Position numbers and translations under genes: made by a program
Assembly: GCA_016125385.1 (NCBI GenBank)
Contig: WGLV01000002.1
Coordinates: 1-64,000, forward strand
Length of the DNA: 64,000 nucleotides
DNA from: a bacterium
Lineage (GTDB): Bacteria; Hinthialibacterota; Hinthialibacteria; Hinthialibacterales; Hinthialibacteraceae
Reading direction: 5' to 3'
Shown: one piece after another, positions 19,689 to 36,633 of the stretch
Layout: each line of letters begins with the position of its first letter
Position numbering within the stretch: position 1 is the first letter of the stretch
Notes under the pieces: generated by a model
What the model was told of the DNA's origin: nothing
What the model saw: the letters and a program-made list of their open reading frames with translations, nothing else
Databases searched by the model: none

Positions 19689-21623
19689 TTATTGCGGCGT
19701 TTTCGAGTTAGCTGTTTTTTCCGTTTGTGCATAGTAATGAATATCGGCCTGCAAATCAGGACGTTTCGCCAGGCGGGCCATATAGCCACGAACCTGAGTG
19801 AGCGCTTGCTGGTTGAATTCGGCGGGATGCAACTGGTCAAACTCGTCGAGCAACCGCTGGCGTAATTCCTGAATCTCTTTAGAAGCAAATGCCGTACCGA
19901 TTAACTCTCTTGCTTCATCAAAAGTATATGGACGCGGCGGCGTGATGTCTCTGACGTAATAGATTTCATATCCAAACCGCATCTGTTGGTCGTCGTTATA
20001 GGGAATGGGTTTGGTGATCTCGCCGGCTTTCAGCCCCACAACGGCGGCCTGCAAGGCCGCGTTCATCCGGTTTTCAGGTATTACGCCGAGTCGTCCTCCC
20101 GAGCTGGCGTCGTCTCCATTGGAGGCGTACAGCGCGGCGGCGTCAAGGAAGGGGCGGCCCTCTTCCAATTCGGCGCGCGCCCGATTGGCGCGGTCTTCAG
20201 CCTGTCGGGTTCGAATCACCCGTTCAAAAGAAGACAGCGAGTAATCGAAAGGAACGCGGAAGAAAATGTGATAGAGATCGTAAATAGCCGGCGTGGTCAG
20301 ATATTGAGAATCTTTGTATTTCTCGTATTGTTCGCGGATTTTCTCATCGGGCATGACCGCGTCGCTGGCTTGTTCTGAGAGGTACAGATCGGCGAGCCGC
20401 GAACGCCGCCAGACCGAAAGGGTCGCGGCGACATCGCTTTCATCCCAGCCACGAGCGCGGGCTTCAGCCAGACACGCGTATTTATTGGCGAGCACGTTGA
20501 GAAAATCGCGCTTCATTTCCGTCGTCCATTTGTGATTCTGAATCGCCATATCCTTGAACTCGCCGAATGTGAGCTCATAAACCCCCGGTACACTCAACAC
20601 GATGGACGATGGATCGGCGTTTTCTGGAGCAATCAACGGTTCATCATTGATCAGACAATTGTGTTTTTCCTGCAACGAGCGGGACAGGCGATAGATGCCT
20701 TCGTTGCGTTTTTCGTCGAATAACTTTTTTAGAATTCCATCACGTACTTCTTCGTAGGGCCGGTATTGGGGTTCGATGAAATCATCGAGTTTCAGGATGT
20801 AATAGCGATCGTTGTACTCGAAAATCGGAGAATATTCTCCTTTTTTGAGCCGCTTGAGTTGTTCTTCAATCGCGGGCGCCGCCGATCCGGGTGGAATGGG
20901 ATTAGCAAGCCCACGAATATTGGCGGGCGCTTCTGAATACTTGACCGCGGCTTCTTCAAACGAGTCGCCCGATTCGATCGCTTTGTACGCTTCATTGATT
21001 TTTTGTTGAGCCGCTTCCGGCGGGCGGCCCTCCGCGTTTTTGTAGACGTAGATGCCGCGAACCTGAAAGACGTTGGTGTTGTCTTCCATGAAGAGGCCTT
21101 CGTGATTCTGTTCGTAAAAACGGCGCAGGTCGGCCTCTGTGATCGAGATATTCTTCAATACTTCTTCCACGACGACCTTCTGATACAACTCGTCGTCGAG
21201 CGTGTTTTTCATGTATTCGGTGAACTCGGGTTTTTGATCGAGTTCCTGTTCCTGCGCCTTCACGGCAAGGATGGATTCAAACGCGATCTCGTGCGCGATG
21301 TCTTTTATATAATCCGTCGTCGAATTAATCTCCGCGGAGGGCAAATCCCCCCCGGAAGGATTGGCTGCTTTTTCATCGTGTAACACGACGTGAGCGAGAT
21401 ATTCATCAAAGGATTTCGTTTCCTGGTATTCCAGCATGAAATCACGGACGGAAACGGTGCGATCGCCGAAAGATATCAGGGTGACGTCCGGCGCTGGACG
21501 GTTGATCTGTCGCGATGGCTCGCCGCCGCAATGAGAAAGCGCTGTGGCGAGCAGAATTACGCACGCGAGCCAGGATAGAGAAGAACGGATTTCAGGGAGT
21601 CGCATCAAGTTCATTGTATCCAT
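19689..21623 (-). CDS. Double-parvulin peptidyl-prolyl isomerase, periplasmic
   Basis: 644 residues. A hydrophobic N-terminal segment (LSWLACVILLATALSHC) ends at Cys32; the residue before it is His, so the lipobox is atypical and lipidation is uncertain. A SurA-N-like helical part follows, then one parvulin-type (PpiC) domain around 170-300 (FQVRGIYVYKNAEGRPP then SGDSFEEAAVKYSEAP) and a second around 440-590 (LYHIFFRVPFDY, EGRPFLDAAALYASNGDD, GGRLGVIPENRM). Such proteins fold or escort outer-membrane and secreted proteins. Spacing to GT2 (36 bases) and to glgA (40) suggests one operon, though the mixed functions make the logic unclear. Confidence 0.85.
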   Translation of the reverse strand: MDTMNLMRLPEIRSSLSWLACVILLATALSHCGGEPSRQINRPAPDVTLISFGDRTVSVRDFMLEYQETKSFDEYLAHVVLHDEKAANPSGGDLPSAEINSTTDYIKDIAHEIAFESILAVKAQEQELDQKPEFTEYMKNTLDDELYQKVVVEEVLKNISITEADLRRFYEQNHEGLFMEDNTNVFQVRGIYVYKNAEGRPPEAAQQKINEAYKAIESGDSFEEAAVKYSEAPANIRGLANPIPPGSAAPAIEEQLKRLKKGEYSPIFEYNDRYYILKLDDFIEPQYRPYEEVRDGILKKLFDEKRNEGIYRLSRSLQEKHNCLINDEPLIAPENADPSSIVLSVPGVYELTFGEFKDMAIQNHKWTTEMKRDFLNVLANKYACLAEARARGWDESDVAATLSVWRRSRLADLYLSEQASDAVMPDEKIREQYEKYKDSQYLTTPAIYDLYHIFFRVPFDYSLSSFERVIRTRQAEDRANRARAELEEGRPFLDAAALYASNGDDASSGGRLGVIPENRMNAALQAAVVGLKAGEITKPIPYNDDQQMRFGYEIYYVRDITPPRPYTFDEARELIGTAFASKEIQELRQRLLDEFDQLHPAEFNQQALTQVRGYMARLAKRPDLQADIHYYAQTEKTANSKTPQ

Positions 21624-22565: not shown

Positions 22566-22777
22566 GTCTCTCCGCCGGGGTTACCCCTTAGATGTCGCGA
22601 TCCCTGAATCCGTCGTGACGATTCGATTTTTTCAGGGCGTAACCGTCCACTATGATGAAGCGCGATGAAGTCATTTCGAGGATTGTCCAATTTCAATAAG
22701 CTATTATAATTTTAATATCAAATTCAATTTCGTGTCATCTCTGACGGCCGCCGCCGTCAGTGGGTGGGGATGAACTC
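22566..22777. promoter_or_regulatory. Divergent control region with promoter and two leader hairpins
   Basis: For the + gene: TTGTCC (22683-22688), 16-base spacer, TATAAT (22705-22710). The + leader contains a perfect 8-bp hairpin CTGACGGC (22741-22748) / GCCGTCAG (22753-22760) ending just before the GGTGGGG ribosome site. On the minus side, the leader of the GT2 gene can fold CCCTGAA (22602-22608) with TTCAGGG (22631-22637), and GGGG/CCCC around TTA at 22577-22587. Confidence 0.6.
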
Positions 22778-23140
22778 ATGAATGACGAGCGTGTGTTTCA
22801 ATGGTTAGCCGATCATGATCGGCGTTATCATCTCAATGCATACTTGTTCGTTCTTGAAGCGCTTCGCTACACGCAGGCGTTGTACAAGAAGACGCGTCAC
22901 GTTTCAGGGCGTCAGTTGCTGGTCGGCATCGCCAAATTCGCCAAAAACCGGTACGGCGAGATGGCGTACCTGGTATTTGAAAACTGGGGCGTTCAAACCC
23001 CGCGCGACTTCGGCAACATCGTCTTCAACCTGGTTGAGATGGGTGAAGTCAAAAAGACCGCCGACGACCGCATTGAAGATTTCGACGTTGATTTCGATCT
23101 GAAGAGTCAGCTCGAAAAAGTCGAACAAAGCCTCGGCTGA
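22778..23140 (+). CDS. Minf_1886 family protein (function unknown)
   Basis: 120 residues from ATG at 22778, chosen over the GTG at 22760 because GGTGGGG sits correctly before the ATG and the GTG lies inside the hairpin. The run RYHLNAYLFVLEALRYTQAL, the central RHVSGRQLLVGIAKFAKNRYG, then VFENWGVQTPRDFGNIVFNLVEMG matches the family called Minf_1886 or Verruc_Plancto-restricted protein. Its members are small, cytosolic and of unknown role; the pattern of two short alpha segments and a winged-helix-like centre is only a guess. It is monocistronic, convergent with the SurA gene. Confidence 0.85.
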   Translation: MNDERVFQWLADHDRRYHLNAYLFVLEALRYTQALYKKTRHVSGRQLLVGIAKFAKNRYGEMAYLVFENWGVQTPRDFGNIVFNLVEMGEVKKTADDRIEDFDVDFDLKSQLEKVEQSLG

Positions 23141-23179: not shown

Positions 23180-24145
23180 TTACGACGCCGCGATTCGTAT
23201 ATCGATCTTCGCATTCTCGTGAAGATCGGTGATCCATTGCTTCATGACGTCTTCCAGTTTTTTCCGCAGTAATAATTTTCCCGGCGTTTCTTTTTCAAGA
23301 ACCTTGATGACATGAAAGCCGAGCGGCGTCCTGATCGGATCGGTGATGGTGTTTTCATCCATTCCGAACAGAACGTCGAATTGAGGGAACATCTGCCCCT
23401 TGCGGAAACGGGGCAGAACGCCTCCCTGAGCGCGGGTTTCCTGATGTTCGGAGAACGTCGCGGCCAGCTCATCAAACGATTCGCCATTACGGGCGCGGGT
23501 GGCGATCTGCCGTGCTTTTTCCAGAGCCTGCGCCACCTGCGGTTCGGTGGCGTCTTCAGGAACGCGGATCAGGATATGCGCCACCTGGATCATCTCATCA
23601 TCAAACATGCCGGGATTGTCTTTCTTGTATTGCTGAATCTCTTCGGGCGTGGGAGGTTGTACCTCGCCCCGCTTGATCTGAGGGGCGACGATGTGGAGCA
23701 GGTAATCCTTATACACCTGCTGACGCTGAATGCGGCGCATTTCATCCCAGGTGACCCCCATTTCCTTTTCGCGTTGTTCGAGCGCGCTGGGCGACGAGTA
23801 TGGCGCCTGCATCTGTTCGATGATGCGATCCGTCTGGCGATCGACCGACTGACGGACGAGGTCTTTCTGGTCGGGATTCAGACGCTGTTCGATCGCGTTG
23901 ATCAGCAGTTTTTCATCAATCAGGAATTTGAGGGCTTCGAGACGAACCTGATTCAGTTGCTGTTCAGACAAAGAACTCAGATCCACGTCGCTTTTCTTGC
24001 GTAGTTGGATGTAATCGTCCAGCTCGCCGGTGAGGATGACTTCTCCATTCACCACGGCGGCGATTTTTTCCGCGCCGGCGGCCTGGCTCCACGAGATTTG
24101 GACGGCGCAAACCACCAGAATCAGAATCCATAAATGCTTTCGCAT
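23180..24145 (-). CDS. SurA-like periplasmic chaperone / PPIase
   Basis: 321 residues. Signal peptide LWILILVVCAVQISWSQAAG, then the SurA N-domain start EKIAAVVNGEVILTGELDDY. A single parvulin domain occupies about 190-290: IQVAHILIRVPEDATEPQV, NGESFDELAATFSEHQETRA and GGVLPRFRKGQMFPQFD, ending TPLGFHVIKVLEKETPG. SurA escorts beta-barrel proteins to the BAM complex. GAGGAG lies seven bases before the ATG. It is 71 bases after the amidohydrolase gene, so it might be read in the same transcript. Confidence 0.9.
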   Translation of the reverse strand: MRKHLWILILVVCAVQISWSQAAGAEKIAAVVNGEVILTGELDDYIQLRKKSDVDLSSLSEQQLNQVRLEALKFLIDEKLLINAIEQRLNPDQKDLVRQSVDRQTDRIIEQMQAPYSSPSALEQREKEMGVTWDEMRRIQRQQVYKDYLLHIVAPQIKRGEVQPPTPEEIQQYKKDNPGMFDDEMIQVAHILIRVPEDATEPQVAQALEKARQIATRARNGESFDELAATFSEHQETRAQGGVLPRFRKGQMFPQFDVLFGMDENTITDPIRTPLGFHVIKVLEKETPGKLLLRKKLEDVMKQWITDLHENAKIDIRIAAS

Positions 24146-24216: not shown

Positions 24217-24954
24217 TCACACAGTGTACAGAATTCGCCGCAAAGATTCCAGAATCGCCGGTTTGATCGGGCCCCATGATTTGGCGCGTTCAGACCAGTG
24301 GCGTTGATTGATCTCCAACTCCACGCCGAGATATACGGCCTGCGAGAAACGGGTGCGCAGCCAGGTGGTAAACCCATCGGACGCGCCTTTGTAAGGCCGG
24401 TTGCAATGGATCGCGATTCGTGGCAGTAAATCTGAACACTCGCGTTTCCAGCGGCGGCACAAATCCTGCTCCAATGGTCTCGCGGGATCGTACAACAGCC
24501 CAATGCCGGTTGGACGTTCGACGCCGTTGAGTATCGGCGTGAAGGTATGGACCGCGAGATGGAACACCCGTTCACCGCGTTCGATTCTATCGCGTATCTC
24601 TTGTTCCACAACACCACGATGTGACGCGTAATAGTGTTCGAGGAGATGGTTTTTGTCATCCACAGGCAAAAACCGGGTGAACTCGGAAAACAGGCGAGGG
24701 TGATGTGGAGAACGATTGCAATCGATTACCAGACGGCTGATGAGAGTGTATCGCAGCGGGGCGTTGAAATCCGCCTCGATGGCTTGCGCCATGTTCAACG
24801 CGCCGACGTCAAATCCGCGATGCGTTCGCAGGATCGCCGTGGCGGCGCTCAAATCTTCTTTGCAGCATTCGGGAATCTCCGCTCCGGCGTGTTCGCACGT
24901 GAGATAAAGAGACAGCCCCGCGCTCAACGGAAAAGCCGCCCCTGAGCGAGGCAT
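24217..24954 (-). CDS. N-formylglutamate amidohydrolase-like enzyme
   Basis: 245 residues from ATG 24954 (a GTG two codons earlier is possible). The FGase fold signatures are present: SLYLTCEHAGAEIPECC near the N-terminus, RTHRGFDVGALNMAQAI, RLVIDCNRSPHHPRLFS, FHLAVHTFTPILNG and YLGVELEINQRHW at the end. His and Glu in these runs are the expected zinc ligands. Family members hydrolyse N-acyl-glutamate or related amide bonds. It overlaps the GCS2 stop by about 31 bases and is the fourth gene of the amidoligase cluster, where it may hydrolyse or recycle the ligated product. Confidence 0.88.
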   Translation of the reverse strand: MPRSGAAFPLSAGLSLYLTCEHAGAEIPECCKEDLSAATAILRTHRGFDVGALNMAQAIEADFNAPLRYTLISRLVIDCNRSPHHPRLFSEFTRFLPVDDKNHLLEHYYASHRGVVEQEIRDRIERGERVFHLAVHTFTPILNGVERPTGIGLLYDPARPLEQDLCRRWKRECSDLLPRIAIHCNRPYKGASDGFTTWLRTRFSQAVYLGVELEINQRHWSERAKSWGPIKPAILESLRRILYTV

Positions 24955-26168
24955 TCGCACAATTCCGCATAGATAAAATGCAGGCTGTCTACGTCGAGGC
25001 CTTCAGTTAAACGGTTAAGAATGCGAGTCGAGAGCGAGCCGTGTTCGAGTATCCATTCCAGCGCGGCGCAAGCTTTGGCGTCACGCTGTTTGAATTCATG
25101 GCCAAGTTCAGCGAACAGATGTTTCCACACGCCGCCCGCGAGAACCGGATCCTCTGATTCAATGCCCAGAAGGCGCAGGTAATCGCGATCGGCGACCGGG
25201 GCGCATTCGGCTTTTTCGATACATTGAAGGAAGATCGTTTCCAGCGGTTCGGTTTTGACGTTTTTCTGTTCGGCGAACGGCGTCCAGCGCTCTTTGACCA
25301 GCGCCTTTAATGCGGCGTCGATCAGCATTAACACGCCCAGGTCGGCGCTGGGGCATTCCTGAATATCGAGCACGCGAATCTCGATCGAGCCCCGGTCGAA
25401 TCGCGCGATGGCGCCGCGCGAGTTGAGCCATTCATGACGCAGGATGCCCTGCGGATCGAGAGGCGCGATGTCGCGGTACATGGGATCAAAGATGCGTTCC
25501 TTGTATTCGCGGTGCGTGAATACCGCTTCGGGAATGACCCGGCCCGTCACCGAGGGGACGCGTTCGGAATTGGTCCGGTAATACGCCATGCGCGCGTCGA
25601 GCCAGTTCGCGCGGCGGCCATCGACCAGTGGGCTGCTGGCCGCCAGAGCGGGCAATAACGGCATGAGGATGCGAATCGCCGCATGCAGCCGCCCGAACTC
25701 TTCATCGCTGGAAAAGGGCAGATTCAGATGAACGCTTTGCAGGTTCGACCAGCCGTGCCCGCCGCAGCCGAAGATGCGATCGTAACTTTCGTACACGGGG
25801 TTGAATTCATGCGGCCAGAGCTGCGTTTCCTGATCGGGGTTCATCCAGGGGTGCATGGCGGTGGGCATGAGCCGGGCGCCGAATTCTTCAAGACGCCGAT
25901 CCAGGTCTTCAATCTGCGACTGGAACAAGCCCGCCAGCCCCGCCAGACCGGGAGCCGGCCCGTTGGTTTTGAGTTCGATCACATGGTTAACGAGCTCGTT
26001 GGACCAGGAAATCTAGCCGCGCTCGATCTCCGATTCATACGAACCGGCCACGGAATGAATCAACCTGTCGCAGAGCGGCGCGACGTTGAGCGTCGAACGA
26101 TTCACGATCATGTATTCCAGTTCGACGCCGTATGCGCTGAAGAGGGCGCGTGACGTTTGAGAAGACAT
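24924..26168 (-). pseudogene. GCS2-type carboxylate-amine ligase, interrupted by in-frame TAG
   Basis: From ATG at 26168 (three bases after the RimK stop) the frame reads SRALFSAYGVELEYMIVNRS and continues to SYESEIERG, then meets TAG at codon 52 (26013-26015). After the stop the same frame carries on as ISWSNELVNHVIELKTNGPA to the end at 24924. The pieces match the GCS2 family, GVELEYMIV before the break and HVIELKTNGPAP, WSNLQSVHLNLPF and SIEIRVLDIQECPSADLG after it. The enzyme would join an amine to a carboxylate using ATP. A GTG (25982) inside the helix could restart only a truncated protein without the first Glu-binding strand. Decay, sequencing error and read-through cannot be separated here. 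Confidence 0.8.
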
Positions 26169-26170
26169 GG

Positions 26171-27628
26171 TTAGCGGGCTTTCCGTTTTTCAATTCGTTC
26201 GACAAAGACGGAGATGATCTGGTCGTAGAGCGCGTCTTTCAGCTTCGCGTCTTCAAAACCGGCGTCGATGCTGGGATTGTCGTTGATTTCTATGACGTAC
26301 ACTTTATCGCCGATTTGTTTCAAGTCGACGCCGTATAGCCCATCGCCGATCAGGTTGGCGGCGCGCAGAGCGGTTTTGACGACCGCGGGGGGCGACTCTT
26401 CGACTAGATACGAGGCCACGTCACCGTAGCGCGTTTCGCCATTCATCTCATTCTTCTGAATCTGCCAGTGATCGGAGGCCATGAAATACTTGCAGACGTA
26501 GATCGGCTTGCGATTCAACACCCCCACCCGCCAGTCAAAAGGCGTGGGGGTGTATTCCTGAGCGATGATGAGATCGGAATCATCAAGCAGCCGCTCGATG
26601 ATACGATGCAGGCTGTCGGGATCTTCCGCTTTGAATACGCCCTGTGAAAACGAACTGTCGGGCATTTTTAAAATGCAGGGCAAACCGATGGTCTGTTGAA
26701 CCTGCGTCTTGTTATCGCGATGAACGATCATGGTACGGGGATGCGATATGCGGTGACGGCTGAGCAGCTCCGCGAGGAAAACCTTATTGGTGCATAGCTG
26801 GATGGACGCCGGATCGTCGATTACGACAAGCCCTTCGGCGGCGGCGCGGCGAGAAAAGCGGTAGGTATGATGATCGACGTTGGTGGTCTCGCGGATAAAC
26901 AGCGCGTCGAATTCGGGGATCGAGCCATAGTCGTCCTTGTCGATAAATTCCACGCCCAGGTCGGCTCGTTTGGCTGCTCTGGCGAAATTTTTTAACGCGC
27001 GATCGTTGGAGGGCGGGTTTTCTTCATCATCGCTGACCAGGATCGCGAGATCGTAACGAGGGATCTTCCGCCGGGGCGCGCGCGGCGCGGATGCGAAAAA
27101 TTCCTCCGCCGCCTGCGTGACGAAGCCGTAATGCTCCTGAACCACTTCCTTGATGGTGATAGGGTAGATTCTGTGCAGAGCCCAATGGTTATCGAGATAA
27201 CGGAACTCGGCGCGAAGCAAGGGCGATTGAAACAGGCGTGAGAGCTGGTCAGCTAGGCGTTCATACCGCTTCGCCATGTTTCGTCCGAAATAAATGCTGA
27301 GGGTGAAACGATCGGATTGCAGCGGTTTGAGGCTGCGCTGAATCAGTTCGTCAAGATCGTCGGAGATCAGCCGCAGAATCGAAAGCGACTTCATGTCCTG
27401 AATCGTTTCGATGCTGGGGATGGGGCGATGATCGCGGGCGGCCGCCAGCAGGGAGACGTAATACCCCAGGCTCTGATAGCGGTAACTGCTGCACAGGTTG
27501 AATACTTTTACGCCGCGCTGATCGCTGAATTTGGGGTCGGAAAGATAGTGACGGGCCGAGACGACCTCCGCGCCCGTATGAGTGAACGGCCAGCGTTTTG
27601 GATTGTTCACGACGATGAGGTTCGGCAT
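26171..27628 (-). CDS. RimK-type ATP-grasp ligase with RLAN N-terminal domain
   Basis: 485 residues. The first ~180 residues (NLIVVNNPKRWPFTHTGAEV, VFNLCSSYRYQSLGYYVSLL, then IQDMKSLSILRLISDDLDEL) match the RLAN domain that precedes some ATP-grasp enzymes. A pre-ATP-grasp segment (RYDLAILVSDDEENPPSND) follows. The ATP-grasp fold spans about 285-470 with CILKMPDSSFSQGVFK, IAQEYTPTPFDWRVGVLN and the metal-binding VIEINDNPSIDAG near 447. RimK enzymes add amino acids to a carboxyl group using ATP. Close packing (3 bases to GCS2, 9 from the C39 gene) indicates a single transcript. Confidence 0.9.
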   Translation of the reverse strand: MPNLIVVNNPKRWPFTHTGAEVVSARHYLSDPKFSDQRGVKVFNLCSSYRYQSLGYYVSLLAAARDHRPIPSIETIQDMKSLSILRLISDDLDELIQRSLKPLQSDRFTLSIYFGRNMAKRYERLADQLSRLFQSPLLRAEFRYLDNHWALHRIYPITIKEVVQEHYGFVTQAAEEFFASAPRAPRRKIPRYDLAILVSDDEENPPSNDRALKNFARAAKRADLGVEFIDKDDYGSIPEFDALFIRETTNVDHHTYRFSRRAAAEGLVVIDDPASIQLCTNKVFLAELLSRHRISHPRTMIVHRDNKTQVQQTIGLPCILKMPDSSFSQGVFKAEDPDSLHRIIERLLDDSDLIIAQEYTPTPFDWRVGVLNRKPIYVCKYFMASDHWQIQKNEMNGETRYGDVASYLVEESPPAVVKTALRAANLIGDGLYGVDLKQIGDKVYVIEINDNPSIDAGFEDAKLKDALYDQIISVFVERIEKRKAR

Positions 27629-27637
27629 GGCGAATGA

Positions 27638-28369
27638 CTACTCGCTCCTCCGGGGTTCGATCAGAAGAAGGTTGGCGTCATCGGTGAGGACGCCCAGCAG
27701 AATCGACGAGATCAGCCGGTCCAGATTGACTTCGTAGTAATGGTTTTCTTTCAACGGATTCGGATACAGTGGATCGGCCACCCGTACAGTGCGATGATCG
27801 CGGTTGTATCCGCATAATACCACGAAATGCCCGCAAGGCGTTCCTCGAATGTCATCGTAATCACAGTTCGGGCCGATTTCACGCGAGCTGTGATAGAGAT
27901 AGGTGGCGCTGAGTCCGGTCAGAATGGGTGTGTCTTTTTTCAGATGTTTCTGGATGAGCCGGTGCGTCAGCTCGGCGAAGCGCAACTCTCCACCTAATTC
28001 AAAGAATTCAAGATAATTCTGGCTGATCAGTTGGATCCGCGGGCTGGTTTTGTGTTTCATCTGTTCGATGAGTTTGTCACGGATCTGGCCGGTTTTCAGC
28101 CCGAACCAGGTTGGGTCGAAAACGTCGAGGTTGTATGAATAGATCGTTGCGTGGTAGCCCCGTTTTAATGCGTGACAGGCGAGGATCACCGCCAGCGTTC
28201 CGCCGGTGAGCAATTGGGGAATTCCGGTGATGACGGTTTCGAGCGGCAGGACGTCGTTGTAATACTGGTACACCGCCTGAAGACAGGTGGGGCCGCAGGT
28301 GAAATAATCGGGCTGCGGCATGATGGAAAAATGAATTTTTTTCTCGACGGGGTCGGCGGTGTTGGTCAT
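27638..28369 (-). CDS. C39-like cysteine peptidase of the amidoligase cluster
   Basis: 243 residues. Papain-like catalytic set: Cys25 in PQPDYFTCGPTCLQAVY, His181 in GTPCGHFVVLCGYNRD and Asp199 in VRVADPLYPN, in the order Cys-His-Asp of the C39 family. No signal peptide or membrane segment, so unlike bacteriocin exporters it is a free cytosolic enzyme. The domain also contains SYNLDVFDPTWFGLK and TGLSATYLYHSSRE. In this neighbourhood it is thought to cleave or transfer a peptide product. First gene of the cluster; ten bases before RimK. Confidence 0.85.
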   Translation of the reverse strand: MTNTADPVEKKIHFSIMPQPDYFTCGPTCLQAVYQYYNDVLPLETVITGIPQLLTGGTLAVILACHALKRGYHATIYSYNLDVFDPTWFGLKTGQIRDKLIEQMKHKTSPRIQLISQNYLEFFELGGELRFAELTHRLIQKHLKKDTPILTGLSATYLYHSSREIGPNCDYDDIRGTPCGHFVVLCGYNRDHRTVRVADPLYPNPLKENHYYEVNLDRLISSILLGVLTDDANLLLIEPRRSE

Positions 28370-29879: not shown

Positions 29880-30021
29880 TTTTGAAAGAATCCGATATAC
29901 TATAATTACCAGTAACCATGATGATCCGTTCCATATCATCATCAAGTCAGCTGATTGAACAACTTCAACGATAATTAGGGTAGAGCCTCTGATGAGGCGC
30001 ACTTTGAAAGGAGTGATTTTG

Positions 30022-30348
30022 ATGAAAATCACCAATTTCGCAATCGTGTTAGCCGTTGGAATTTCTCTGGTCCTGATGGGCTGCACCTCGTCGCCCACGC
30101 AGACCGGCGCCTTGGGCGGCGCGGCGGTGGGCGGTCTGGCGGGGCAGTTGATCGGTGGAAATACCACGTCGACTCTGCTGGGCGCCGGCGCCGGCGCGGT
30201 TGGCGGCGCGCTTCTGAACGATCATATCGACCGGCAGAAGCGTGAATCCTACAATCAGGGCTATAACCAGGGTTACAACCAGGGCAGCGCCAATTCGAAC
30301 AGCTCGACGTCGCAGAGCCAGCCGAATTACAACTCGGCGCCTCGCTGA
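30022..30348 (+). CDS. Glycine-zipper lipoprotein
   Basis: 108 residues from ATG 30022, with AAAGGAG nine bases upstream. Lipoprotein signal: KITNFAIVLAVGISLVLMGC, lipobox LMGC at Cys21. The mature part opens with a glycine zipper (GALGGAAVGGLAGQLIGG and LLGAGAGAVGGALLNDH) typical of SlyB/OmpA-like and YMGG-type lipoproteins. Then comes a charged stretch and three repeats of YNQG (SYNQGYNQGYNQGSANS) with an Asn/Ser-rich C-terminus. It probably associates with the outer membrane. The next gene downstream is a paralogue, separated by a terminator. Confidence 0.8.
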   Translation: MKITNFAIVLAVGISLVLMGCTSSPTQTGALGGAAVGGLAGQLIGGNTTSTLLGAGAGAVGGALLNDHIDRQKRESYNQGYNQGYNQGSANSNSSTSQSQPNYNSAPR

Positions 30349-30513: not shown

Positions 30514-30903
30514 ATGAAAACGCCCATTGGAATGATCATCATCGCGAGCGTGGTATCGATCGCGGCGGGCTGTAACACCACCAGCGGAGCGCTGGGCGGC
30601 GGCGCCATTGGCGCGCTGGCGGGTCAGGCGATCGGTGGAAACACCGAAGCCACGCTGATTGGCGCCGGAGTGGGCGCGTTGTCGGGCGCTCTGGTGGGAG
30701 ACGCGGTCGAACGAGACCGGGCCCGGTCGTATGGAACCGGATACCATCAGGGATACGCCGATGGCGCGAGCCGGTATACGCCTCCACCGCCTGCTCGTCC
30801 TCGCTTTCGCGGACGCCCGATGAATCCCCATCATTATTACTATGTCCCGGCGCCCGGCTATTACTACGTACCCGCGCCGCCTCCTCCGCCCTACTATCCG
30901 TGA
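30514..30903 (+). CDS. Second glycine-zipper lipoprotein, Pro/Tyr-rich tail
   Basis: 129 residues. Lipobox SIAAGC with Cys20; GAAGGAGCC precedes the ATG. Mature zipper GALGGGAIGALAGQAIGGN, then LIGAGVGALSGALVGDAVE, closely similar to the upstream paralogue including the order of Gly residues. The tail differs: SYGTGYHQGYADGAS, then Pro/Tyr-rich runs with PAPGYYYVPAPPPPPYYP at the end, resembling cell-wall or surface-associated stretches. Likely outer-membrane anchored. Tandem duplication of a small envelope protein is inferred. Confidence 0.8.
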   Translation: MKTPIGMIIIASVVSIAAGCNTTSGALGGGAIGALAGQAIGGNTEATLIGAGVGALSGALVGDAVERDRARSYGTGYHQGYADGASRYTPPPPARPRFRGRPMNPHHYYYVPAPGYYYVPAPPPPPYYP

Positions 30904-30999: not shown

Positions 31000-33900
31000 T
31001 CAGTCGACGATCATGTCCTGCGGCGGCGAGATCGATTTGACCTCGGGGTTGTAATACTCATACACGCTCGACGCGGGCGCCTTGGCCACCACTGGAAGAG
31101 TGGCCTTCATCGGCACGTCGATCTTCAGCGTTTCGCCGCCTTTCATCGATTCGATGTAGATCAACACCTGCCGGGCGGTGGCGCTGTACTTTGCGATGGT
31201 CCCCTTGTCGACGTATTCATCCAGCTGGGGGCGCTCGACCTGGAACCCGGGCGGGACGCCGACGTCGATCATCACCATTTGAGCCTGCTCGGGCCGGTTG
31301 TTGGTGGCGGAGACGTGGCAGGTGACGCGGTCGTTGCGGCGCAGTTCGGTGCGGTCGTATTCGACCTGAATGTCGAAGGCTTTGTTGATTAATTGACTCG
31401 TCTGAATGGCCGAACCCGAGACGGGGCCGTGCAGCGGAACGATCCCGCCAAAGCCTTCGAAATACTTGCCGACGATCTGGTACATCATCGAGCCTTCACC
31501 GTTCATGGTCAGCTCGACCTTGTTTTCGCCCTCGTTAAGAAAACGGGTGGCGTCGATCTGGTGGAATACGTCGGCGTTATCGGGCGTGATTTCAATGCGC
31601 CCCGCCTCGCGTCCATTGACGGCGACCACGGCGGTTCCATCGCCCAGGCTGGTGCGGGCGCCGAGTGAGCCGATCAGCGCCTTGAGCGCGAGTACGGTTC
31701 CATGCGTGGTCGACCAGGCCCCGTTGGGCGATTTGACCGAGATCAGCCAGTTGAGCGTGCGGGAGAGTTCGGCGGGGTAGCGGCCGCTTTCGATGGCGGC
31801 CAGCGCCGCCCAGGCGGTGACCTCGACCCAGGCGTGTTCGCCGCGCGCGAAGCTCATGCTGGCGTCGCACTTCCAGTACTGCTTGTCGTTTTCCACGACC
31901 GCCATATCTATCAGGCGCCTCATGGCTTCAAGCGTGACAGGATTTTTCGGCGCGAGTTTCAACAGCGCATTGCACAAGATGGAAAGCGTGTAGGCGTCGT
32001 CCGCGCTTCGGGCGTGGTCGAGCAGGTACTGGGTGGTGGTTGAAAGCTCGCCGGCGCCGGCGTTAGCCAGCGCGAGGGCGATGTACGCCGTGACCAGCGT
32101 TTTGTTATCCTGAATCGATTTCCACATTTCGGCGTGGGCGTAATTGGAATCGGGTTCCCACGAGCCGTCGGCGTTGCGCTGGCCCATCAGCCAGTTTTTC
32201 GTCCGGGCGAGCACGTTTTCGTCGATGGGGTAGACTTCGTTCATGTCGCCGAATTCCATCAGCCCGTAGGCGGAAAGCACGCGGGTGGCGGGCGCCTGAC
32301 CGAAGACGGAGAAGCCGCCGCCGGGAATCTCAAAAGTCAGCAGGCGCTGGTAACCCAGGTTGATATATTCGCGCGCCTTCATTTCGATGGCGGGGGTGAT
32401 GCGTTCGCTGTCGCGCATGTAGCGCATCGCGAGAATGTTGGGATAGGTGGTTGAACTGGTTTGTTCGAAACAGCCGTAGGGCATCTGCAACAGGGCGTCC
32501 ATACCCTCGACCACCTGACTGAAAATGCCGGGATAGATTTTGACCCAAAGCCGATCGGCGCCCTGCAGGCGGTTGGGGGGCAGGGAAAAGCGTTCTTCCA
32601 CTGCGCTTTCCAGCCGTCCGTTGAAATTCACGAAGCGGGGTTCGCCGTTGGGGCGTACCTCAATGGTCCGGGAGATGGCGTCGGCGTCTTCCGAACCCCA
32701 GGCGAAGACGGTGAGCGGTTTGTCGCCCAACTGGCTGGCCTGAATGCGGTATGAAACCGAGGTGACCTCGTGAGCGGCGACTTTAACGTCTCGTTTCAGA
32801 TCCCCTTCCAGCAAATCGAACCAGCCCGCCTTTTCGAGCGAGACTTCGACTTCCTGCGGTTTGTCGAGGTAGTTGTACACCGCCACCGGGATGGTGACCT
32901 CATCGCCCCGGGTGAGAAACACCGGCAGGTCGAGATCGATGAAGAACGGCTTGAAGACCTTCATCGCGGCGGTGGCGTCGCCCAGCGCGCCGCTTTTGGC
33001 GTTGGCCATCGCCGACAGACGCCAGGTGGTGATGGAATCGGCCATCGGCAGATTGAGTTGGGCCTCGCCGCGTTCGTCGGTGATCAACTCGGGCGTGTAG
33101 TACAGCGTTTCGGGGAAATAACGCCGCACCCGCACCGCGCGCTCGGCGGGTTTGACGCTGGCTGAGGCGTCTGACAGTTCGCTGAACTTTTCCCGCAGGC
33201 TGGCGAGCGTCTGCTGGACGGTCTGGTCGAGTTGGCCGCCGTGTTTTTCGAGGGCTTTTTCCGCCGCCGCCTGAAGCGCTTTTTCATTGACCACGCCGCC
33301 GGCGTAGAGCGGGCCCAGGTTTTCATCCTGAAGGCCCATTTCCTGCTGAAACTCGCCCCACAGCGCTTCGCTGCGCTCACCCAGTGAATCGGTCGCGGAA
33401 ACGATAAACGAGAACAGATCGTTCATCCCCGCCGCGGGTAATGCGGCGTCATCTTGCGGCTTCAGCAGGTCGAAGGGGACCTCTTTTTGCAGCGATTGAT
33501 AGATAGGATCGGCTTCCGGCCGATTCGCCTTGTCTTCGCTCTGAGCGGAGTAATCGTAATAGACGGACTTGTCTTGATTATCCGCTTGAGCGATGGCGGC
33601 CGATGTGGCGAGGTTGGAGACGCCGTCATTGTTGATATCTCCGTTTGAGGGATGGACCGCGCCAAAACGGTCCTGTACCATGATGCCGTCCGCATCATCG
33701 CCCGGCTCAAACCCCCATTGAGAATCCTGAGGTTGGGCGCCGCCTTCCGCGCCAATGCCGGTATCCTGCACGTTGGAAGAAACGCCGGGAGGGCCGTCCA
33801 AAGCCATTATGCCAGGTTGTTGTTTTACCAATTTATAATTGATGGCGGGAGCGTCCGGCGCCGCTGCCATATCAAGTCGATCGATCCCACGCATTCCATA

Positions 33901-36633
33901 GCCCCCAAAGCCTCCGCCTTGTAGCTGCACGGCGCCCGGTTCAATTCCCTTCGCCAGGGCGGGTTCCCGGCCCAGCGCTTCTCTCTCTTCCAAAATGATC
34001 GCCCCTTCGTCCAAAAGGCGTTCCTGAACGGCTCCTCCACGTCGAAGCATCAGTAGCCGCTCTCCACCCCTCCCCAATCCCAGCACTCTCATGCGGGGGA
34101 GGATGCTTTGCAGCGTTTGCGTTTCATCATCCTGTGTATCGGCCAGTTCATCTGGGCCGACGCTGGCCAGGCTTAGTTCACCACCGGATGTACGGTAGAT
34201 CGCATACGGGCGTCCCCACGGGTCTTTCAGCGGAAGATCGTTAAGGTCGCCGTCCAGCCGAAGCAGCGCTTCACCCGCCGTCATGGGATGGTCAAAGAAG
34301 TTTTCACCGCGTGGGTTGCTCCCATCGGGCTGTAATCCCAATTCAGCCATTTTCTGTCCCAGCGCCTGAAGGTCGGTTTGCACCCGCCGGCGTTTTTCAA
34401 CGCCGGTGTCGACGATCATCCTGGATGAATCCGGGTTGTCGAGACGTGAAAGAAGCGCCTTGGCGAGCGAGTCTTCTTTCTCCAGCGGCATCGGTGACAA
34501 GGAAATCGCCTTGTCGAGTTTGTAGCCATGAATTTCCACTTTGGGCTGGAGCAGTTCGCGCTCGATAGCGAAGAAAACCTTCGCCAGCCCCAGTTCTTTT
34601 TCGGAGAGGCTGTAGACGCTTTCATCGACGATGTTCATGCCAAGAGCCGCCTGCACCGGTTGGCCGGCGGAGTCGCGCACCGCGATCTTGAGCCGAGCGG
34701 GCTGCCCGGGGGCGTATTGGTCGAGGTCGGGCGTGATTTCGATGCGCAGGTCGTCGGAGCGAAGCGCGATGACGCGCCGGTTGTCGCTAACCATATTGCC
34801 GTCGCTTCTGATGCGATACGCATTAAGTTCAATTGTCCCGGATAGATCATGCGTGATCGGCTGCTTGATTTGGGCTCGCCCGTTTTCAGGACGCAAGGTA
34901 TGCGTTAACTGGGTCTGACCGTCTTTGATGATATCGAGATAAACGGCTTCGCCTTTTTGATTCGGCGAAAAGACATTTACCGTCATCACGTCGCCAACCC
35001 GATACACAGCCTTATCTGGACGAAGAAGGAGAGAATCTTCGGTTGCGGTGACGGGGACCTCTTTATTGAGCGAGATGGTTTTTCCATCCAGATTGGCTTC
35101 GATAGTGAGCGCGACCGGTTCTTTCTCTTTTGGAGTGACATATAGAACCGCGATTCCATCATCATTGCATTTTACTTTGATATCTTGCTTTAAGGCGCTT
35201 GATTTAATGCTCAGGCTCGGCTTGGCGACGCTTCCGTCGGGATAGGAAGCGACCAGATAAACCTCGTTCTCGACGCCCGCCGTCAGGACGCCGCTTTCAG
35301 GAATCAGGTCAACTTCCAGCGGATCGGACGCGGCGTGGAAGGTATGAATCTTCTGTTCTTCATGATCCGCCGAATCGCGTACCCGTGTGTCGAGCTGAAT
35401 CAGGGCGTTTCCTTTGAACAACGGTTGACCCACCAACCGGTCCGGCAAGACAAATGAGAATTCAAACTTGCCTTCGTTATTGGTTTTACCATCAACGGTT
35501 ACAAATTCATTAAAGCCAATATCGAAGCAATTAGCCACGATCTTGACCGCCGCCCCGTCCACCGGCTTGCCGAAGAAATAACGCGATTCCAAGCTGCCTT
35601 TCACGGTTTCTCCGGGGGCATAGAACGAACGCTCGGTTTTGACGTCGACCCGAAACTTGGGCAGGACGTATTCATACACCTGAACGCCTTTTTCAAACTC
35701 CGTTTCTCCGCTGATGGCTTTGACAAGGTAATCGCCTTGATTGACTTCGTCAGCCAGTTGAAAATCGGCGGAGACGACTCCGAATTCGGAGGCTTTTTCA
35801 TTCTGTTTGAAGACTTTGTTACCGCGACCGTCGTAGACTTCAAGCGTGACCGTTCTACCGGCAAGCGGTTTGTTGCTCATCTGATGAGCGATCAGCCCAC
35901 GGATATGGATGGTCTGGCGAGGCTGATAAACAGGTTTGTCGGTGGTAAGAAAAATTTTGACGCCGGGTTTCACGGTGACGCGGGATTCGAGCGAGTTATC
36001 ACCCAGCTTCGATCGAACATGAAGGCTGAGTACGTATTCGCCGTTAAGGCCGTCCAGCCGATTGAAGACGAGTTCGGCCGCGCCGCCGGAGTCGGTTCGA
36101 GCCTCGACCCGAATGACGGCCTCGCCGCCCCGGGCGAGTTCCGCGCTGACTTCAGCCCCTTCAATCGGGGCTCCATCCCGTCCGTTGGTGACGATCGCGC
36201 GGACAACGCTTCTGCCGCCCTCAATCCACTCTGTCTGACCGACCAGTTGAATCTCCTGACTGTCTTGCTCTGTGCCGAGAGGCTTGAGCCACACCTGACC
36301 CATCAGGTCGATGCGCAGGGTGCATTGATCCAGCGCGGGTGCGTTGGATGCGATGGGCAATGCGATCTCCTCGACGCCTTTTCCATTGAGAATGACGATT
36401 TTTTTCTCGAGCTTGGAGATCGGCTGATACCCGCCGTCGAGCAGCGTCGCCTTCAGGTCTTCAATTCGCCGTCCGGTCTCACTGAACTGAAACGGGAGTG
36501 TGATCGCCACCGATTCGGCGTGACGAACGGCGGTGACGCCGTTGCGGTCGAGCGTTATATCGGCGGACGCGCCCAGCGCGCCTATCGCGATGAGAAAGTA
36601 ATAAAGTAACAGGGTTTGAAATCGTTTTTTCAT
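31000..36633 (-). CDS. Bacterial alpha-2-macroglobulin family protein
   Basis: 1877 residues. Signal peptide FQTLLLYYFLIAIGALGASA. Several MG (macroglobulin) beta domains follow, e.g. VKIFLTTDKPVYQPRQTIHI near 225 (MG2) and FRVDVKTERSFYAPGETVKG near 330. The bait-like region (about 700-1100) is long and loop-rich and contains a DPWGRPYAIYR motif near 803. Then the A2M domain (ELITDERGEAQLNLPMADSI), the thioester site CFEQ at 1388-1391 within PYGCFEQTSSTTYPN, an alpha/alpha thioester domain and the C-terminal receptor-like domain. The protein traps proteases that attack the periplasm or cell surface. It follows the anti-sigma gene by 24 bases. Confidence 0.93.
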   Translation of the reverse strand: MKKRFQTLLLYYFLIAIGALGASADITLDRNGVTAVRHAESVAITLPFQFSETGRRIEDLKATLLDGGYQPISKLEKKIVILNGKGVEEIALPIASNAPALDQCTLRIDLMGQVWLKPLGTEQDSQEIQLVGQTEWIEGGRSVVRAIVTNGRDGAPIEGAEVSAELARGGEAVIRVEARTDSGGAAELVFNRLDGLNGEYVLSLHVRSKLGDNSLESRVTVKPGVKIFLTTDKPVYQPRQTIHIRGLIAHQMSNKPLAGRTVTLEVYDGRGNKVFKQNEKASEFGVVSADFQLADEVNQGDYLVKAISGETEFEKGVQVYEYVLPKFRVDVKTERSFYAPGETVKGSLESRYFFGKPVDGAAVKIVANCFDIGFNEFVTVDGKTNNEGKFEFSFVLPDRLVGQPLFKGNALIQLDTRVRDSADHEEQKIHTFHAASDPLEVDLIPESGVLTAGVENEVYLVASYPDGSVAKPSLSIKSSALKQDIKVKCNDDGIAVLYVTPKEKEPVALTIEANLDGKTISLNKEVPVTATEDSLLLRPDKAVYRVGDVMTVNVFSPNQKGEAVYLDIIKDGQTQLTHTLRPENGRAQIKQPITHDLSGTIELNAYRIRSDGNMVSDNRRVIALRSDDLRIEITPDLDQYAPGQPARLKIAVRDSAGQPVQAALGMNIVDESVYSLSEKELGLAKVFFAIERELLQPKVEIHGYKLDKAISLSPMPLEKEDSLAKALLSRLDNPDSSRMIVDTGVEKRRRVQTDLQALGQKMAELGLQPDGSNPRGENFFDHPMTAGEALLRLDGDLNDLPLKDPWGRPYAIYRTSGGELSLASVGPDELADTQDDETQTLQSILPRMRVLGLGRGGERLLMLRRGGAVQERLLDEGAIILEEREALGREPALAKGIEPGAVQLQGGGFGGYGMRGIDRLDMAAAPDAPAINYKLVKQQPGIMALDGPPGVSSNVQDTGIGAEGGAQPQDSQWGFEPGDDADGIMVQDRFGAVHPSNGDINNDGVSNLATSAAIAQADNQDKSVYYDYSAQSEDKANRPEADPIYQSLQKEVPFDLLKPQDDAALPAAGMNDLFSFIVSATDSLGERSEALWGEFQQEMGLQDENLGPLYAGGVVNEKALQAAAEKALEKHGGQLDQTVQQTLASLREKFSELSDASASVKPAERAVRVRRYFPETLYYTPELITDERGEAQLNLPMADSITTWRLSAMANAKSGALGDATAAMKVFKPFFIDLDLPVFLTRGDEVTIPVAVYNYLDKPQEVEVSLEKAGWFDLLEGDLKRDVKVAAHEVTSVSYRIQASQLGDKPLTVFAWGSEDADAISRTIEVRPNGEPRFVNFNGRLESAVEERFSLPPNRLQGADRLWVKIYPGIFSQVVEGMDALLQMPYGCFEQTSSTTYPNILAMRYMRDSERITPAIEMKAREYINLGYQRLLTFEIPGGGFSVFGQAPATRVLSAYGLMEFGDMNEVYPIDENVLARTKNWLMGQRNADGSWEPDSNYAHAEMWKSIQDNKTLVTAYIALALANAGAGELSTTTQYLLDHARSADDAYTLSILCNALLKLAPKNPVTLEAMRRLIDMAVVENDKQYWKCDASMSFARGEHAWVEVTAWAALAAIESGRYPAELSRTLNWLISVKSPNGAWSTTHGTVLALKALIGSLGARTSLGDGTAVVAVNGREAGRIEITPDNADVFHQIDATRFLNEGENKVELTMNGEGSMMYQIVGKYFEGFGGIVPLHGPVSGSAIQTSQLINKAFDIQVEYDRTELRRNDRVTCHVSATNNRPEQAQMVMIDVGVPPGFQVERPQLDEYVDKGTIAKYSATARQVLIYIESMKGGETLKIDVPMKATLPVVAKAPASSVYEYYNPEVKSISPPQDMIVD

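Follow-up and report, generated by a model that had tools for sequence, protein, structure and literature searches.

Two ligases and two hydrolases in a conserved four-gene unit of Hinthialibacterota and other bacterial phyla, with a possible role in small-peptide metabolism

The window analysed here, a stretch of 64,000 nucleotides from a genome of the phylum Hinthialibacterota, contains a run of four minus-strand genes (24217-28369) that encode a C39-like peptidase, an RLAN-RimK fusion protein, a GCS2-family ligase and an FGase-type amidohydrolase. Such an arrangement raises the question of whether these genes belong together and, if so, what their products make or modify. The features are as follows.

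27638..28369, minus strand: C39-like (papain-fold) cysteine peptidase/transpeptidase, 243 aa, without a transporter domain (Pfam, conservation, AF2 model, fold matches)
26171..27628, minus strand: fusion of an RLAN domain (about 25-172) with a RimK-type ATP-grasp ligase (about 192-481), 485 aa (Pfam, metal residues, AF2 model, fold matches)
24924..26168, minus strand: GCS2-family carboxylate-amine ligase gene, 414 positions plus stop, with one in-frame TAG at codon 52
26013..26015, minus strand: the in-frame TAG inside the GCS2 gene (nonsense codon or assembly error)
24217..24960, minus strand: FGase-family (N-formylglutamate amidohydrolase-like) amidohydrolase, 247 aa (Pfam, 2odf profile match, invariant residues)

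The genes are closely packed, with nine bases between C39 and RimK, two bases between RimK and GCS2, and an overlap of 37 bases between the 3' end of GCS2 and FGase. Pfam searches matched the C39 protein to Peptidase_C39_2 (6.7e-08), the fusion protein to RLAN (9.3e-47) and RimK (2.8e-11), the GCS2 protein to PF04107 (4.9e-29; 102-110 bits against a curated cut-off of 21) and the FGase protein to PF05013 (1e-15; 59 bits against a cut-off of 28.9). These matches and the coordinates bear out the description, given in a first-pass annotation of this DNA, of four co-directional minus-strand genes of the named families, two of them bond makers and two bond breakers. Among NCBIfam models an equivalog was found for none of the four proteins; the best matches were to RimK-family, YbdK-family and HutG models, far below cut-off. 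A PADLOC search for a defence role gave no match.

The same annotation had observed that the C39 enzyme has neither a transporter nor a leader-peptide substrate in the window. Indeed, the protein is not fused to a transporter domain, and a precursor peptide was not found beside it. A SurA-like gene had also been placed 71 bases downstream; its position is correct (a peptidyl-prolyl isomerase gene, 23180-24145), but it does not form part of the setting of the module. Both this gene and the upstream membrane protein were rejected as members, neither being conserved next to the module in relatives.

Conservation and history of the unit

Profile searches of 14 genomes of the phylum found the RLAN domain, GCS2, C39 and FGase subfamilies in one common set of six genomes; the remaining eight gave no match to any of them, and carriers and non-carriers occur inside one family of the phylum. 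The FGase gene lies about 5 kb off in G011, and the module is split across two contigs in G004. On a wider scale, 84,980 species genomes were scanned with the RimK protein; 258 stretches were confirmed and 80 loci were kept. C39 precedes RimK, in conserved order and orientation, in 53 of the 72 loci where flank length permitted the test. GCS2 follows RimK in the same sense in 60 of 76 testable loci, and FGase comes next in 27 of 67. At both the C39/RimK and the RimK/GCS2 junctions stop and start codons often overlap, with a median gap of -1 base. Order and orientation are kept for C39-RimK-GCS2 in 12 named phyla and for all four genes in nine. Since the 80 loci were chosen by RimK similarity, the occurrence of GCS2 or C39 without RimK is excluded for the 14 phylum genomes only, by means of the other three profiles. 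Moreover, the distance matrices of the four proteins correlate pairwise (r 0.75-0.81, with none of 1000 permutations as high), a correlation to which shared species history contributes.

It had been considered at the outset that homologues of these proteins might rarely be found together. The opposite is seen, both in the shared set of phylum genomes and in the order kept across the 80 related loci, and the grouping is a true functional unit. No other conserved gene was found near the module; the flanks are unrelated between phyla, and even within the home phylum, so that the conserved unit consists of exactly these genes. Nor was any conserved gene found in the flanks of the loci that follows GCS2 in place of FGase.

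In the RimK tree the source locus groups with same-family genomes (L002, L004) and with Hydrogenedentota loci (L008, L009, L015), a placement that makes Candidatus Hydrogenedentota the probable affiliation of the source genome. The tree requires at least 23 changes of phylum, which suggests transfer of the module between phyla. Partial modules also occur. Twelve Gallionellaceae-type loci keep RimK, and neither C39 nor GCS2 was found in those of their genomes that were searched, nine or more in number. These genomes with a solo RimK include those of L032, L042, L045, L053, L056, L060, L061, L062 and L076; their RLAN-RimK is well conserved and their loci are nested inside the full-module clade. 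FGase was likewise not found in three Gallionellaceae-type genomes. This group apparently has a separate use for RimK. In Uhrbacteria (about 1.2 Mb) and in Omnitrophota the two ligases, RimK and GCS2, are present with neither C39 nor FGase nearby. In Nitrosomonas and a Verrucomicrobium FGase is encoded elsewhere in the genome, and it was not found in many of the searched genomes whose module is without it. A separate observation concerns four Cytophagales loci (L083, L084, L086, L087), in which a DUF155 (RMND1-like) gene precedes the module in the same direction.

An in-frame stop codon in the GCS2 gene

The GCS2 gene had earlier been read as an intact open reading frame at 24924-25982, and this reading does not hold, the frame being only the C-terminal part of the gene. 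It begins at a GTG codon at 25982 and so is without the first 62 residues, which include the invariant E16, E18, N57, E58 and H62. The true start is an ATG at 26168, two bases past the RimK stop codon, which gives 415 codons including the stop, and the in-frame TAG lies between the two starts. A search of the genome with the GCS2 subfamily profile found a single copy, the one carrying the TAG. The site is open in the other phylum genomes that cover it and in nearly all loci from other phyla, and relatives have varied residues there (K, G, V, E, P or others); none of the other relatives in the alignment has a stop at this position. In the source genome TAG serves as an ordinary stop, since it terminates the adjacent C39 gene. 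For this reason, and because RimK begins just beyond that stop, recoding of TAG across the genome was set aside.

If real, the TAG would break the GCS2 step in the source genome. The module might then be decaying there, with a true nonsense mutation, a dead GCS2 and the pathway switched off, a situation compatible with any reading of the function. The position of the TAG in frame at codon 52, and the fact that the neighbouring C39 gene ends normally with the same codon, are in line with decay. However, the rest of the 415 codons is without further damage and nearly all family-invariant residues are kept, and comparison with relatives gives a pN (0.31-0.37) well below pS (0.68-0.76). The assembly, moreover, is a draft of 77 contigs in which a single-base error is possible, and isolated frame breaks are found at other loci too (L003, L030 and L055). 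On balance we consider decay a serious prospect that is nonetheless somewhat less probable than its opposite. The stop is either a recent mutation or an assembly error, and one draft assembly stands behind both readings. As a general observation, frame breaks confined to a single assembly affect C39, RimK or GCS2 genes at L030, L055 and L118 (G013), so isolated breaks do occur in drafts of the module.

The four enzymes and their possible function

Conservation analysis showed that catalytic residues are intact in the module families. For the RimK protein, the concern that it might lack the metal residues of an ATP-grasp enzyme is removed by an 83-sequence alignment, in which D435, E447 and N449 are invariant or nearly so. 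D365-W-R367 is invariant and aligns with the D-x-R motif of LysX and RimK. An AF2 model of the fusion protein (mean pLDDT 87.2) places the RimK domain closest to ArgX/LysX (Z about 26) and RimK (Z about 25), followed by D-Ala ligases (Z about 22) and glutathione synthetase (Z 21.0); the superposition on ArgX/LysX/RimK extends over about 265-272 residues at Z 25-26. Both ArgX and LysX join an amino acid to a glutamyl carboxylate. These amino-carrier ligases thus have the closest fold, and their conserved D-x-R and ExN motifs are present in the module RimK. In contrast to them, the module enzyme has an N-terminal RLAN domain and a different operon, and the LysW carrier (TIGR01206) was found in none of the 14 phylum genomes, although it was found in controls. 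The literature search returned no paper naming the RLAN domain.

The members of the GCS2 family are small-molecule ligases. The module GCS2 profile gave no match to solved structures at 1e-3, and the GCS2 protein used singly found plant glutamate-cysteine ligase (GCL) weakly (best 0.04). Judged by its sequence, the module GCS2 is a remote branch, too divergent for a confident match to glutathione-type ligases. FGase matched 2odf (Atu2144) by profile (1.2e-39), and its residues E23, H24, H47, D51, H134, H138 and E216, putative metal or catalytic residues, are invariant.

For the C39 enzyme, the catalytic set Q19, C25, H181 and D199 is conserved in 62 sequences. Its AF2 model (mean pLDDT 90.3) superposes on a double-glycine leader-peptidase domain (Z 16.1, rmsd 2.1, 135 residues, 22% identity) and on the primitive phytochelatin synthase Alr0975, a glutathione-cleaving enzyme whose structure was solved as an acyl-enzyme with glutathione (Z 15.8, rmsd 2.7, 164 residues). 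The two Z scores amount to a tie, and a common fold is no proof of function. The phytochelatin synthase profile (PF05023) gave no match to C39 at E 0.001; the likeness to Alr0975 is one of fold alone.

One rival reading is a role in the maturation of a ribosomally made peptide, in which C39 would take off the leader and the ATP-grasp enzyme would cross-link the product, as in graspetides. An ATP-grasp ligase is indeed present, PsnB is among the Foldseek matches, and C39 shares with the leader peptidases ComA, PCAT1 and LahT a Cys-His-Asp fold that gives its best structural score. In contrast to those peptidases, the module C39 is longer (243 aa) and is not fused to an ABC transporter, and no leader peptide gene was found adjacent to it. 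No conserved small ORF was found up- or downstream of the module across phyla (a distant precursor gene is possible), which makes such a role less likely; nor is a transporter conserved with the module, and RimK is nearer to ArgX/LysX/RimK than to graspetide ligases. Furthermore, we know of no role for GCS2 and FGase in graspetide clusters. Peptide maturation of this kind is therefore regarded as very unlikely.

The main rival to a small-peptide pathway is the modification of a protein or carrier. Here RLAN would bind a protein to whose end or side chain RimK adds amino acids, GCS2 would cap or extend the addition, and C39 and FGase would remove the tag, making the system reversible in the manner of RimK/RimB on ribosomal protein S6. 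The nearest relatives of the RimK domain (ArgX, LysX and RimK) all act on protein-borne glutamate, and the solo RimK of Gallionellaceae fits a single-enzyme protein ligase. However, no conserved substrate gene adjoins the module, LysW is absent as described above, and a protein modifier would not need strict pairing with a ligase of a small-molecule family such as GCS2. Known RimK/RimB and RloABC systems do pair a RimK-type ligase with a peptidase, in the case of RimK/RimB a protease (PMC12239564), a likeness that speaks for protein modification. The partner in the module is nevertheless of papain fold rather than a retropepsin, and GCS2, FGase and the RLAN domain are present in addition; no RimB-type retropepsin partner was found in the operon, and no conserved flanking gene beyond the four. 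Taken together, we judge protein modification improbable, at well under an even chance.

A further possibility is salvage, in which the main task of the module would be to degrade and recapture an unusual acyl- or gamma-glutamyl-amine; GCS2 and RimK would supply activated intermediates (compare the catabolism of gamma-glutamylated amines). The module has two hydrolases, one of them from a family (FGase) with a known part in catabolic deformylation, and its scattered occurrence between unrelated flanks suggests an accessory metabolic module. Yet no dehydrogenase, aminotransferase or transporter travels with it, and among the RimK-selected loci the ligases are kept more widely than the hydrolases. 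Salvage appears quite unlikely.

We tentatively favour, at just short of even chances, a self-contained pathway for the synthesis and turnover of a small non-ribosomal peptide, resembling a two-ligase pathway of the glutathione type but with hydrolases of its own. In the first step GCS2 would couple an acid to an amine; its family suggests glutamate, reacting through the side-chain carboxyl, as the probable acid. RLAN-RimK would then extend that product by another amino acid, and its RLAN domain may hold the peptide as it grows. Cleavage or transpeptidation of the product would fall to the C39 enzyme, and FGase would take off an N-acyl group or a terminal amide. The order of the steps, the substrates and the product are those that we infer. 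A division in which the ligases make the product and the hydrolases process it fits the two-ligase loci of Uhrbacteria and Omnitrophota. Four findings weigh against the pathway: GCS2 is too divergent to be matched confidently to glutathione-type ligases, the solo RimK of Gallionellaceae-type genomes indicates that RimK can serve without its proposed partner, FGase could not be found in many genomes whose module is without it, and the GCS2 gene of the source genome carries a TAG.

The closest parallel to the proposed pathway is glutathione biosynthesis (GshA/GCL plus GshB) together with phytochelatin synthase. There too a GCS-type ligase and an ATP-grasp ligase act one after the other, and their product is cut or transpeptidated by an enzyme of papain fold, as the superposition of C39 on Alr0975 recalls. 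The module differs in that its ATP-grasp enzyme is nearer to ArgX/LysX/RimK than to GshB, and in having an RLAN domain, a remote GCS2, an extra FGase and no Phytochelatin Pfam match. Glutathione synthetase itself was rejected as a partner; PF02955 is found in four of the 14 phylum genomes, and its distribution does not follow that of the module. The more specific proposal, that the module is a transferable four-gene unit making a new and widespread glutathione- or phytochelatin-like peptide in many phyla, by GCS2 and then RimK, with C39 as a dedicated transpeptidase/hydrolase and FGase as a deacylase, is conceivable but on the doubtful side. As for the interpretation first given to this locus, its conserved module of two ligases and two hydrolases stands, while SurA in the setting and an intact GCS2 in the source genome do not.

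An RLAN/RimK-GCS2-FGase grouping of the same enzyme families is said to have appeared in the comparative genomics of amidoligases by Iyer et al. in 2009. To our knowledge no product of the module is known. A 2015 article by the same group cites that earlier work for ATP-grasp and COOH-NH2 ligases that are linked in operons and carry out ligations in succession (PMC4431377). The literature search found no paper on this four-gene grouping, nor any product. The module families are all known and the grouping was probably predicted earlier. Two peptide ligases and two hydrolases are nonetheless inherited as one unit in many phyla, and isolates of Nitrosomonas, Pontibacter and Marivirga are among the carriers. 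A small peptide made by this unit would be a widespread metabolite missing from biochemistry, and a protein modified by it would bear a widespread tag; as cultured carriers exist, the question of function is open to direct testing.

Other genes of the window were noted in passing. On the minus strand, 31000..36633 encodes a bacterial alpha-2-macroglobulin (1877 aa) with TED, bait-region and receptor-binding domains, and two PpiC/SurA-type peptidyl-prolyl isomerase genes a short distance apart (19689..21623 and 23180..24145) lie on either side of a family 2 glycosyltransferase; the isomerase of 644 aa has two PPIase domains. On the plus strand, the adjacent glycine-zipper lipoprotein-like genes at 29992..30348 and 30514..30903 are likely a local duplication, and the protein encoded at 22760..23140 belongs to the hypothetical family TIGR04138 (Minf_1886), whose name refers to Planctomycetes and Verrucomicrobia.
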